NCBI RefSeq assembly: GCF_024464595.1
Contig: NZ_JANHAW010000002.1
Coordinates: forward strand, 930,001 to 994,000
Direction of reading: 5' to 3'
DNA: 64,000 nt
Source: Halobellus litoreus
Lineage (GTDB): Archaea; Halobacteriota; Halobacteria; Halobacteriales; Haloferacaceae
A program made the position numbers and the translations under genes. Each line of letters opens with the position of its first letter. The stretch's first letter is position 1. The notes below the pieces were generated by a model that was not told where the DNA came from, made no database searches, and saw only the letters and a program-made list of their open reading frames with translations. This document shows positions 15,414 through 37,687 of this stretch, in pieces.

Positions 15414-16613
15414 CTATCGGATGACGTCGAGGCCGTTCTGCTTCTCGCGCTGTTCGCGGCCGCCGTCGGACTGCCAGGAGCCGCCCGTCGCGGTCGACCC
15501 CGAAGAGCCCTGCGACAACTGAGCGTTCTCGCTGGCATCGAACTCCGTCGTCTCGATGCTCTCTCTGGATCGGTCGGCCTGCTTCTGGGTCGACGGGCCG
15601 AGCACCTGTGCGGACTGGACGCCGGTCATAATCGCCATCACGCGGACTTTCCCCTTGTACTCGTCGCGGATGCGCGCGCCCCAGATGACGTTCGCGCGCG
15701 CCTCCAGCCGTTCGGTGATGTTGTTCGCGATGCCCTCTGCCTCCTTCAGCGTGAGGTCGGGGCCGCCCGTGATGTGGACCAATCCGCCAGAAGCCCCCCG
15801 GTAGTCCACGTCCAAGAGCGGGTGGTTCATCGCGTCGTTGACGACTTCCTGGGTCTTGTTCTTGTCCTGGGTCTGGCCGACGAGCATCACCGCGACGCCG
15901 CCCTGATCCATAATCGTGGACATGTCGGCGTAGTCCAGGTTGATCAGCGACGGTTGCGTGATGGTCTCCGAGATTCCTTTCACGGTCTCGGCGATGATCT
16001 GGTCCATCACCGAGAACGCCTTGCCGATCGGGAGGTTGGGGACGTAATCAAGCAGGCGGTTGTTGTCGAGGACGATGATCGAGTCGGCCTCGTTGCGGAG
16101 CTTTTCGAGCCCCTCTTCGGCCTTTACCGTCCGCGCTCGCTCGACGTTGAACGGGGTCGAGACCATCCCGACGACGATCGCGCCCTGCTCTTTGGCGATC
16201 TTCGAGACGACCGGGGCCGCGCCGGTCCCGGTGCCGCCGCCCATCCCGGCCGTGACGAAGACGAGGTCGGCCTCGCCGAGGACTTCCTTGATCGTCCCCT
16301 GGGCCATCTCCGTCGCCCGCTCGCCCATCGAGGGGTCGCCGCCGGCACCGAGACCCTGCGTCAGCGACTTGCCGACGAGGATCTTCGTGTCGGCCTCGAT
16401 CATCTTGAGGTGCTGCTTGTCGGTGTTGATCGCCACCGTGTCAGCGCCGTCGACGCCGATGTTGTAGAGCCGGTTGACGGTGTTGTTGCCGGCACCCCCT
16501 GCACCGACGATGACGATCCGGGGACTCCCGAACTCGTCTCCCTCCGGGGCTTCGGTGTTCGCGTCCCGCTCCTCCTCGTCGCGCTGCATCGCCTCTCTGA
16601 CTATATCTTGCAT
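15414..16613 (-). CDS. ftsZ2: Cell division GTPase FtsZ2
   Basis: A 399-residue tubulin-family GTPase that constricts the haloarchaeal division ring. GTP-binding segments are [16 protein letters not shown] (about 35-50), [12 protein letters not shown] (tubulin signature, about residue 130) and NLDYADM (synergy loop). The acidic 30-residue N-terminal extension beginning MQDIVREA and the Ser/Gly/Gln-rich C-terminus are typical. I call it FtsZ2 rather than FtsZ1 because it follows cdrS by three bases and neighbours ncsA, the arrangement I recall for Haloferax ftsZ2. It is expected to be cotranscribed with cdrS. Confidence 0.93.
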
Positions 16614-16616
16614 TGG

Positions 16617-16793
16617 TTACACCTTGGCCCAGTGTTTGGTCGGCGAGTCGCGTCCGTCGGCCTGCTGTTCGTTGAGCATCTCTCGAACAGCCGAGCGGAT
16701 CGCCTCTGACCGGTTCGGGAACTCCCCGGTCTCGACCATCTGTTCGACCTCCTCAATCTGCTGCTTCGGAATTCGTAGTGTCACACGCTCCAT
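16617..16793 (-). CDS. cdrS: Ribbon-helix-helix regulator CdrS
   Basis: A 58-residue CopG/RHH protein: [20 protein letters not shown] forms the ribbon and first helix, and [14 protein letters not shown] the second. It is the haloarchaeal cell-division regulator CdrS, known in Halobacterium and Haloferax to control ftsZ2 and division. The ATG at 16793 starts the conserved ribbon; eleven in-frame codons upstream are within the leader and overlap a putative operator half-site. The stop is three bases from the ftsZ2 ATG, so the two form one operon. Confidence 0.92.
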
Positions 16794-16808: not shown

Positions 16809-16962
16809 GTAAGACGGCGCGCACATCCGTGCGAATGTCTTACACCCCCGAAAACGGAGTGTAGCGGATCTCTCCCCTGCCCCGCCGGGTTCTGTAAGAC
16901 GACCGTCTTACGCGAGAGTTACCACAGAGCGATACCTTATAAATGTAACGCCGTTGTAAGAC
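16809..16962 (-). promoter_or_regulatory. Cluster of GTAAGAC/GTCTTAC operator half-sites upstream of cdrS
   Basis: Five copies of the heptamer GTAAGAC or its complement lie in this stretch: 16809-16815, 16837-16843, 16894-16900, 16905-16911 and 16956-16962. The third and fourth form a palindrome (gtaagacg, two bases, cgtcttac) that starts just downstream of the predicted transcription start. The first and second form a wider inverted pair. A sixth copy is at 17217-17223 inside cdrL. The palindromic form fits a dimeric RHH protein such as CdrL or CdrS. Binding is inferred, not shown. Confidence 0.7.
16936..16944 (-). promoter_or_regulatory. TATA box of the cdrS-ftsZ2 operon
   Basis: Read on the minus strand this is atttataag, a strong TATA match. 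Transcription would start near 16912-16916, giving a leader of about 120 bases before cdrS. One GTAAGAC half-site lies just upstream of it and the palindromic pair directly downstream. Confidence 0.6.
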
Positions 16963-17002
16963 AAACTCCGTATTATCGCGTATACGGTAGCCTTGGCCCC
17001 GT

Positions 17003-17617
17003 TTACGTGCGTTCCAGCACGTCTGCTGCCGACGTCCGACGGCCGCAGCTGGGACAGAAGGCCCAGTCCGATCTGAGCTCGTCGCCGCACTCGCAGAACA
17101 CCCGATGGGAGGCCTTCTCTCCACAGTTCGGGCAGTACACGTGATCGCCGTCGACGCGTGCACCGCACTTGTCGCACGTCTTCGCACCGGCGTCCGCGTC
17201 GACGCCATCGCCCCGTGTCTTACGTTCCGTTTCGGACGTCGTCGCTGCCGACGACTCGTCGGTAGCGACCGTCTCCTCGGCACTGACGCCGTCGAGGGTG
17301 ATGTTGACGTTGAGGTCCTGCGCTCGGCCGGCGGGGGCGGTCCTGCCGAACCGGTCGTCGAGCCGATCCGCGACGAGTTCGTCGACGCGTTCCCGAACGA
17401 GGTCGTCGATGGAGTCGCTGGATCGCTCCGACGGTGACGACTCCCCGTCGAGATCGATCGGCTGCTCGGATCCGCCCGCGTCGGACGGGCCGTCGTCACG
17501 ATCCGCGCCGTCGAGGTACGTGCGCAGCGCCTCGCGCATCGCCTCGGACTTGGAGGTGTCGAGCGCCTCCAACCGCTCGACGAGGTCGTCGTCGGCGCGG
17601 AACGTGATCTTGCTCAT
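17003..17617 (-). CDS. cdrL: Ribbon-helix-helix zinc-ribbon regulator CdrL
   Basis: A 204-residue transcription regulator. The N-terminal 40 residues (MSKITFRADDDLVERLEAL, then KSEAMREALRTYL) are an RHH DNA-binding domain. A long acidic, disordered middle follows, and the C-terminus has two zinc ribbons (CDKCG with CPNCG, then FCECGD with CPSCG). This is the architecture of CdrL, reported in Halobacterium to bind the cdrS-ftsZ2 promoter. It lies directly upstream of cdrS on the same strand, separated by 209 bases holding the operon promoter. Its own TATA element is probably ttcaaata about 27 bases before the ATG, implying a leaderless mRNA. Confidence 0.9.
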   Translation of the reverse strand: MSKITFRADDDLVERLEALDTSKSEAMREALRTYLDGADRDDGPSDAGGSEQPIDLDGESSPSERSSDSIDDLVRERVDELVADRLDDRFGRTAPAGRAQDLNVNITLDGVSAEETVATDESSAATTSETERKTRGDGVDADAGAKTCDKCGARVDGDHVYCPNCGEKASHRVFCECGDELRSDWAFCPSCGRRTSAADVLERT

Positions 17618-17765
17618 CGGTCGTATATATGCAACCGACTATTTGAATCTTCCTTCGTGTCTGACGGATGTCAGTCGAGGGGTCTCCCGATCAGGGGCGT
17701 TCGGTCGCTTCCGACCGCCGTCTCGCTCCGGCAAATTCAAGTCGACTTTCACCGTTTCAACCGTA

Positions 17766-31316: not shown

Positions 31317-31345
31317 CAGTTGGGGAGTCTTACAGCGAAGAGAGG

Positions 31346-36991: not shown

Positions 36992-37687
36992 ATGAGTAAG
37001 ACACACGGCGCACCGGCTTCGGCAGGTATCGTCGGCCGATGGAACGGGCTCAGACCGGCGGATCGATGGGTGATCGGCTGGATCGGCGTGAACCTGCTCG
37101 TCTTCGGCCACGTCGTCCTCTTCGAGACGCCGCTGTGGCTGACGTACGCCTACAACGGCCTGCTCTACGCCATCGGAATCTGGGTCGCGGTCCGCTTTGC
37201 GGCCGTGCGAGACGTGTTCGTCCTCGGCAGCGTCGCGGGCGTGCTGGAAGTCGGCGTCGACGCGTTCCTCGTCTCCACCGGTTCGCTGGTCTACCCCGAC
37301 TCGCTGCCGATGCTCCTCGGCTCGCCGCTCTATATGCCGCTGTCGTGGGCGCTGATTATCACGTACTTCGGGTATCTCGGTCGCCGTCTCGACGACGCGG
37401 GCGGTCCGCTCGCGGCGACGGTCGGCCCGTCGGTCGCCGCGATGGTGCTCGTCGGCTTCTTCGAGTACGGCGCGCACTTCGCCGGGATCTGGCGGTACGA
37501 AATCGCGCCGCTCGCGATGCTCGGGACCGTTCCGGCCTTCATCGTCGCCGCTGAGGGCGTGATGTTCGCGGCGCTCTACTGGGTGGTCCGACTCCGCCGA
37601 CCGCTACTCGGCGGCGTGGTTTTCGCGACCGTCATCAGCGTCAGCTACGTCGGGGCTTACGCGCTGTTCGCCGCGGTCGGCGGGTGA
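36992..37687 (+). CDS. Multi-pass membrane protein (DUF6989-like)
   Basis: A 231-residue protein with seven or so hydrophobic helices: GWIGVNLLVFGHVVLFE, YNGLLYAIGIWVAV, LGSVAGVLEVGVDAFLV, YMPLSWALIITYFGYLG, SVAAMVLVGFFEYGAHF, TVPAFIVAAEGVMFAALYW and the C-terminal helix. Acidic residues inside helices (GVLEVGVDAFLV, FFEYGAHFAG) suggest a functional site. I recall a haloarchaeal DUF of this kind; function unknown. It is divergent from the 7TM kinase with a 210-base gap, so a shared regulatory region is possible. Confidence 0.7.
   Translation: MSKTHGAPASAGIVGRWNGLRPADRWVIGWIGVNLLVFGHVVLFETPLWLTYAYNGLLYAIGIWVAVRFAAVRDVFVLGSVAGVLEVGVDAFLVSTGSLVYPDSLPMLLGSPLYMPLSWALIITYFGYLGRRLDDAGGPLAATVGPSVAAMVLVGFFEYGAHFAGIWRYEIAPLAMLGTVPAFIVAAEGVMFAALYWVVRLRRPLLGGVVFATVISVSYVGAYALFAAVGG

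Follow-up and report, generated by a model that had tools for sequence, protein, structure and literature searches.

The window, i.e., the whole stretch of 64,000 nucleotides that was analysed, carries on its minus strand the genes cdrL, cdrS and ftsZ2, in this order of transcription. The cdrL gene (17003..17617) encodes 204 amino acids with an N-terminal ribbon-helix-helix (RHH) domain (PF01402), a CdrL_M middle part (PF24252) and a C-terminal double zinc ribbon (PF12773), cdrS (16617..16793) encodes an RHH protein of 58 amino acids, and ftsZ2 (15414..16613), co-oriented directly behind cdrS, encodes a division tubulin (PF00091, PF12327). Both regulators score above the gathering cut-off of RHH_1, PF01402 (20.5), CdrS with 34.5 bits and CdrL with 24.1 bits, and the residues of their strands (R3/T5/R7 in CdrS, K3/T5/R7 in CdrL) presumably face the DNA, by analogy with Arc and NikR. 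The start of cdrS was set at 16793 by alignment, the mechanical open reading frame start at 16826 being too long. Among named cdrS genes, those closest to the one here come from Halobellus species, and the window belongs to a genome of this genus.

Six copies of the heptamer GTAAGAC/GTCTTAC surround the cdrS promoter, all at the positions claimed in an earlier note on this DNA, and in order of transcription they form the sites D, A, B, C1 and C2. Site D (17217..17223, minus strand) lies within cdrL, where it is read as CGT-AAG-AC(R), i.e., Arg-Lys-Thr. Site A (16956..16962, plus strand) is a single heptamer directly upstream of the TATA-like box ATTTATAA (16937..16944, minus strand; TTTATAA at 16937-16943), just as the note had placed it. 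Site B (16894..16911, minus strand) is the palindrome GTAAGAC-N4-GTCTTAC with heptamers at 16894-16900 and 16905-16911; as had been described, the sequence GTAAGACG-AC-CGTCTTAC is an inverted repeat with perfect 8-bp arms around a centre of 2 bp, and it begins approx. 32 nt downstream of the TATA-like box, which is the predicted start site (start sites in this study are predictions from TATA-like boxes). The 5' leader holds C1 (16837..16843, minus strand) and C2 (16809..16815, plus strand), the latter adjoining the ribosome-binding region GGGGGAAT.

The window contains eight copies of the heptamer, compared with 2.99 expected from dinucleotide shuffles, i.e., about one per 21 kb and not one per approx. 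8 kb as in the earlier note. At this rate the Poisson probability of five copies in 155 bp is approx. 1.6e-13, and the clustering is thus far beyond chance, as had been argued; chance clustering is ruled out by the shuffles, by the uniqueness of the palindrome in the genome and by the class-wide array (see below). Two further lone copies (31327-31333 and 36996-37002) are consistent with chance. In addition, GTAAAC/GTATAC-like words are found at 16970-17003 (CGTAAACG at the cdrL stop, and CGTATACG) and recur between cdrL and site A across many genera, with GTTTAC adjoining A in Halobacterium-like loci; they are possibly a site for another factor.

Conservation of the array in the class Halobacteria

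In genome-wide pattern searches of class and phylum samples, which were drawn and are not complete, the exact palindrome GTAAGAC-N4-GTCTTAC was present in 233 of 292 class genomes, once in 232 of them and twice in one (G239, the only genome with two), while a reversed-pattern control gave 0 matches in the same 292 genomes. The genome of the window holds a single exact copy, site B. The upstream regions of 111 cdrS genes (80 loci, 30 from deeper families, and the window) contain on average 4.25 copies of GTAAGAC (0.034 in shuffles), with at least two in every one of them; since the loci are kin and the counts are not independent, the breadth of 30 named genera and at least ten families is the safer measure. 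The conservation upstream of cdrS in related species, which the earlier note had proposed to look for, is class-wide.

The spacer of the palindrome is 4 bp in 89 of the 111 regions, 5 bp in 13 and 3 or 2 bp in four, and in five regions the palindrome was not found. In a search which allowed any middle base, both heptamers of B were letter-perfect in all 106 palindrome loci. B is present in 29 of the 30 named genera, the exception being Haloquadratum; in three loci of this genus (L048, L050 and L103) B is not intact, the second heptamer being degenerate or reversed. Haloferax loci carry the full array, and so do loci where CdrS has 55 amino acids, the published length in Halobacterium (this genus assignment being inferred). 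A TATA-like hexamer precedes B by 30-34 nt in 83 loci. Site A (87/106 loci) is mostly found 52 bp before B and elsewhere farther out and in the opposite orientation, with differences between clades, while C1 and C2 are present in 85 and 94 of the 106 loci, respectively. The base that follows the heptamer is recurrently a purine in A, B, C1 and D, and the base before it is usually a pyrimidine.

The 11- and 28-bp spacings, in which the earlier note saw possible room for cooperative binding, are both correct for the window, but only the first is kept in relatives: the C1-C2 spacing varies, mostly between 26 and 38 bp with 31 as the commonest value, and a fixed cooperative distance of 28 bp is not supported. 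The array has the layout of RHH operators, with short half-sites, repeated or inverted, in the promoter of the gene that they control and with adjacent half-sites about one helical turn apart (11 bp for B in 89/111 regions, mostly 12 bp in the others); A, C and D are outside the 11-bp register. The array very probably serves cdrS-ftsZ2 as its operator, and GTAAGAC is very probably a docking code of small division-controlling proteins. The motif is not reported in the open papers that were searched, and a report in a subscription journal is possible.

CdrS relatives were found with strong E-values in 291 of the 292 class genomes, and in the remaining one (G229, 98% complete) the best CdrS match had an E-value of 1.8e-4; its cdrS may be missing, divergent or lost in an assembly gap. 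Viral carriers of the palindrome were also considered and rejected, as the 56 contigs with the palindrome are no more than would be expected by chance, given the size of the collection, and inspection of three of them revealed nothing related.

As RNA stems of 7 bp are possible at both B and C, and as the folding of the C1-C2 stretch is better than that of shuffled versions (63 variants, mean z of -1.2, 57% below -1), the inverted repeats could be RNA hairpins of the cdrS leader and not DNA operator sites, which we regard as highly improbable: as the main explanation it is disfavoured by B, which is invariant in sequence and not merely in pairing, and by the placement of A upstream of the TATA-like box in either orientation, and moreover D is located in another gene and the 11-bp phasing outside the class (see below) lacks an RNA rationale. 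The leader itself looks structured, with a C1-C2 stem (16816-16836) whose sequence differs between genera and, in several loci, another inverted repeat between B and C1 (16844-16893), and there is possibly a hairpin near the ribosome-binding region.

The heptamer within cdrL

Since Arg-Lys-Thr recurs in CdrL proteins, a coding coincidence was first expected for site D. Among 105 cdrL genes, 66 copies of GTAAGAC were found, every one in the same orientation and 64 sharing a codon phase. Almost all of them lie 284-351 bp upstream of B, and they read CGT-AAG-ACR nearly always, within a linker that is otherwise divergent. The Arg codon of this tripeptide is CGT in 71 of 72 cases, compared with 16.6% of 1834 other Arg codons of the same genes, and for Thr either ACA or ACG is used in 71 of 72 (ACA 56%, compared with 11% elsewhere). 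This codon usage rules out the coincidence, and because synonymous positions are constrained, the cdrL copy is under selection at the DNA level; the sixth site of the earlier note is thus real. In two loci (L113 and L114), D occurs twice, 15 bp apart.

CdrS boxes and the reader of the array

ChIP-seq of CdrS in H. volcanii gave 18 sites with a symmetric motif presented as a figure, most of them 41-110 nt upstream of the transcription start site (TSS), and sites upstream of promoters were associated with activation (PMC8406309). From ftsZ1 promoters we rebuilt the CdrS box as GTCnGAC-N4-GTCnGAC; 13 of 14 of these promoters have it in perfect form and at almost the same position. In Haloferax relatives, the distances measured from the tenth base of the box to the start codon are in agreement with those published for the ChIP sites relative to the TSS (PMC8406309): 48 and 47 for dacZ, 43 and 42 for HVO_2987-type genes, 78 and 76 for hisB, 75 and 72 for psmB, and 57-58 (to the ATG) and 50 for ftsZ1. 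The dacZ and psmB boxes have one perfect heptamer only. Exact boxes occur four times in the genome of the window, including ftsZ1 and sepF, and five times in a Haloferax genome, including ftsZ1 and the divergent promoter of the hisB/HVO_2987 type, while the control gave 0. In 7 of 14 sepF promoters, all from Halobellus and close relatives (L002/L286; in the genome of the window contig C1:1136893-1136910), the box is perfect and lies 45 nt ahead of the start; the published CdrS sites of H. volcanii (PMC8406309) do not include sepF. The dacZ promoters of some Halobellus carry three heptamers in 11-bp phase.

The RHH-operator architecture which the earlier note had seen in the array is shared with the CdrS box. 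The CdrS motif of Liao et al. 2021 (PMC8406309), compared here in the form rebuilt from ftsZ1, dacZ, hisB and psmB promoters, likewise consists of two inverted heptamers with a 4-bp gap, read by an RHH protein at division promoters; it differs in its outer triplets (GTC, where B and the array have GTA), in its free middle base, and in the position of most sites upstream of the TSS, whereas B coincides with the predicted start and C falls in the leader. The middle base of B, A4, is fixed and is not required by the CdrS code. Because GTA and not GTC occupies both outer triplets in 106/106 loci, B was not classed as a CdrS box, although it would function in a similar way. The contrast of GTC at the targets of CdrS with GTA at cdrS itself is sharp throughout the class. 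Counted in mismatches, B deviates from the CdrS box by two, which is no worse than the Haloferax psmB site, a published target.

Outside Halobacteria, in other classes of the phylum, each of 40 cdrS-type promoters contains at least one GTCnGAC (mean 2.15, compared with 0.034 in shuffles), the spacing is a multiple of 11 bp in 60 of 63 pairs, and, when up to one mismatch is allowed, 219 of 247 heptamers share the 11-bp register; FtsZ-like motifs follow cdrS in 20 of 20 inspected loci. The CdrL profile (see below), run against 20 non-Halobacteria genomes, returned nothing but hits that lacked the RHH part and were mostly zinc ribbons, which fits the published restriction of CdrL to Halobacteria (PMC7439475). 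From the sequences, an autoregulatory CdrS array would seem to be ancestral, having been retuned to GTAAGAC in Halobacteria; autoregulation by CdrS, to which the earlier note had alluded, is suggested in this sense, as the ancestral state.

The cdrS-ftsZ2 promoter was the only reproducible CdrL ChIP-seq site in Hbt. salinarum (Darnell et al. 2020, PMC7439475), and the array sits at this same promoter, as a match at the level of the region and between different species; no recognition sequence was given in that study, the cdrL deletion carried second-site mutations, and no effect of a clean deletion was published. The cdrS promoter is absent from the 18 CdrS sites in H. volcanii (PMC8406309), though B deviates no more than the psmB site, and this absence from the published peak list is the sole ground for excluding CdrS from B. 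Because the only reproducible ChIP site of CdrL is here, the paired site is unique and cdrS is missing among the CdrS targets, CdrL is the likeliest principal reader of the GTAAGAC array, to which we would assign a probability of about 0.55.

As a test for the presence of CdrL, PF24252 was too insensitive (4/30 genomes) and was replaced by a profile of 11 sequences, in which true CdrLs score 180-255 bits. By this profile no CdrL was found in five genomes (G001, G007, G093, G136 and G260), yet B is intact in all of them, and the cdrS neighbourhoods of four of the five were likewise without CdrL. C2 is also kept in those of these genomes whose promoters were read, while A and D were not seen there; D goes with the gene, and the missing A is suggestive of a tie to CdrL. 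As the five genomes retain the start-site palindrome, the idea that CdrL alone reads the array is not supported, and there must be at least one other reader; B may also serve CdrS.

It seems rather unlikely that CdrS is the principal reader, with the array as an autoregulatory operator that is weaker than the CdrS boxes (GTA for GTC), so that feedback begins only at high CdrS, and with CdrL as a later co-binder. The GTCnGAC arrays at cdrS-ftsZ promoters outside Halobacteria, found without CdrL and including in-phase GTCATAC units, speak for it together with the retention of B in CdrL-less genomes and the psmB-like number of mismatches, but the published CdrS sites omit the cdrS promoter, the GTC/GTA split is sharp with A4 fixed in B, and D and A appear tied to CdrL-bearing genomes. 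A third halobacterial DNA-binding protein, neither CdrS nor CdrL, would account for heptamers that are letter-perfect including the middle base, i.e., stricter than the CdrS box, and that occur also in CdrL-less genomes; it is nevertheless improbable, as the order of heptamer, 4-bp gap, inverted heptamer and flanking Y/R matches the CdrS box, and as CdrL is already known at the cdrS-ftsZ2 promoter. A CdrS-CdrL heterodimer that reads the GTC and GTA triplets separately was considered as well.

Proposed circuit and related systems

With CdrL as the principal reader, the array would be a multi-site operator bound by RHH dimers of CdrS/CdrL type, one per heptamer, and palindrome B would hold two dimers side by side. 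The ancestor would have had GTCnGAC heptamers in 11-bp phase, and CdrS presumably regulated its own operon through them; in Halobacteria the change of outer triplets from GTC to GTA would have separated the array from the CdrS boxes of ftsZ1, sepF and dacZ, and CdrL would then have become the principal reader. Given that B spans the predicted start and C is part of the leader, bound protein would most likely prevent initiation, i.e., repress, and A (by the TATA-like box) and D (approx. 300 bp upstream) would be auxiliary sites that may act via cooperative binding or looping.

A predicted CdrS box with one mismatch (GTCTGACGGATGTCAGTC) lies in the cdrL promoter of the window (17659..17676, plus strand), and 62 of 101 cdrL promoters have such a box with at most two mismatches, compared with 24 of 1010 shuffles. 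These boxes would close a loop from CdrS to cdrL and from CdrL to cdrS-ftsZ2, in which CdrS is predicted to activate cdrL, by the published argument on upstream sites, and CdrL to repress cdrS-ftsZ2, its site being over the start. The first arm is weakened by the CdrS ChIP list of H. volcanii, which, judged by gene names, omits cdrL (PMC8406309), and it may be weak or absent in that species. Recognition of the heptamer by CdrL, repression, looping and the feedback loop are what we infer from these arrangements. The complete scheme is tentative, and we would not yet bet on it: side-by-side RHH regulators in a reciprocal loop with two codes, GTCnGAC for CdrS (ftsZ1, sepF, dacZ, cdrL) and GTAAGAC for CdrL (cdrS-ftsZ2), the second code having been retuned from an 11-bp CdrS array at the origin of Halobacteria, and one of its sites in cdrL dictating Arg-Lys-Thr.

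Other RHH systems offer partial parallels. The NikR operator GTATGA-N16-TCATAC (PMC7055735) is also read by an RHH protein, its GTATGA is nearly identical to GTAAGA here, and CdrS weakly matches NikR chains (E-value 0.003); however, NikR half-sites are two helical turns apart and bound by a nickel-dependent tetramer, the spacing of B is 11 bp, and no nickel-binding domain was found in CdrS or CdrL by Pfam, so B does not correspond to a NikR operator. One RHH dimer per 7-bp non-palindromic heptad is known for Omega (ParB) of pSM19035, with heptads WATCACW (PMC9499535) which, like the array, overlap promoters in mixed orientations; unlike the heptamers here, which are 4 bp apart or dispersed, the heptads directly adjoin one another and have a second role as a centromere. 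As cited in PMC12284271, aCcr1 of Sulfolobales is an RHH cell-cycle repressor and thus, as here, an archaeal RHH protein that controls division-linked genes, in a different lineage with ESCRT-based division; the likeness noted here is one of protein type.

New in this analysis are the array, site D and the exceptional genomes without CdrL, and the question which they address is how archaea time the production of the FtsZ ring. Two ChIP studies left unexplained how CdrL recognises the cdrS-ftsZ2 promoter and why CdrS apparently avoids it; with a letter-perfect class-wide operator and a sharply different CdrS box, both questions become testable by single-base changes. Site D is a clear case of regulatory DNA that constrains the protein sequence of the regulator itself, and the 11-bp arrays outside Halobacteria predict autoregulation of division genes by CdrS well beyond haloarchaea.
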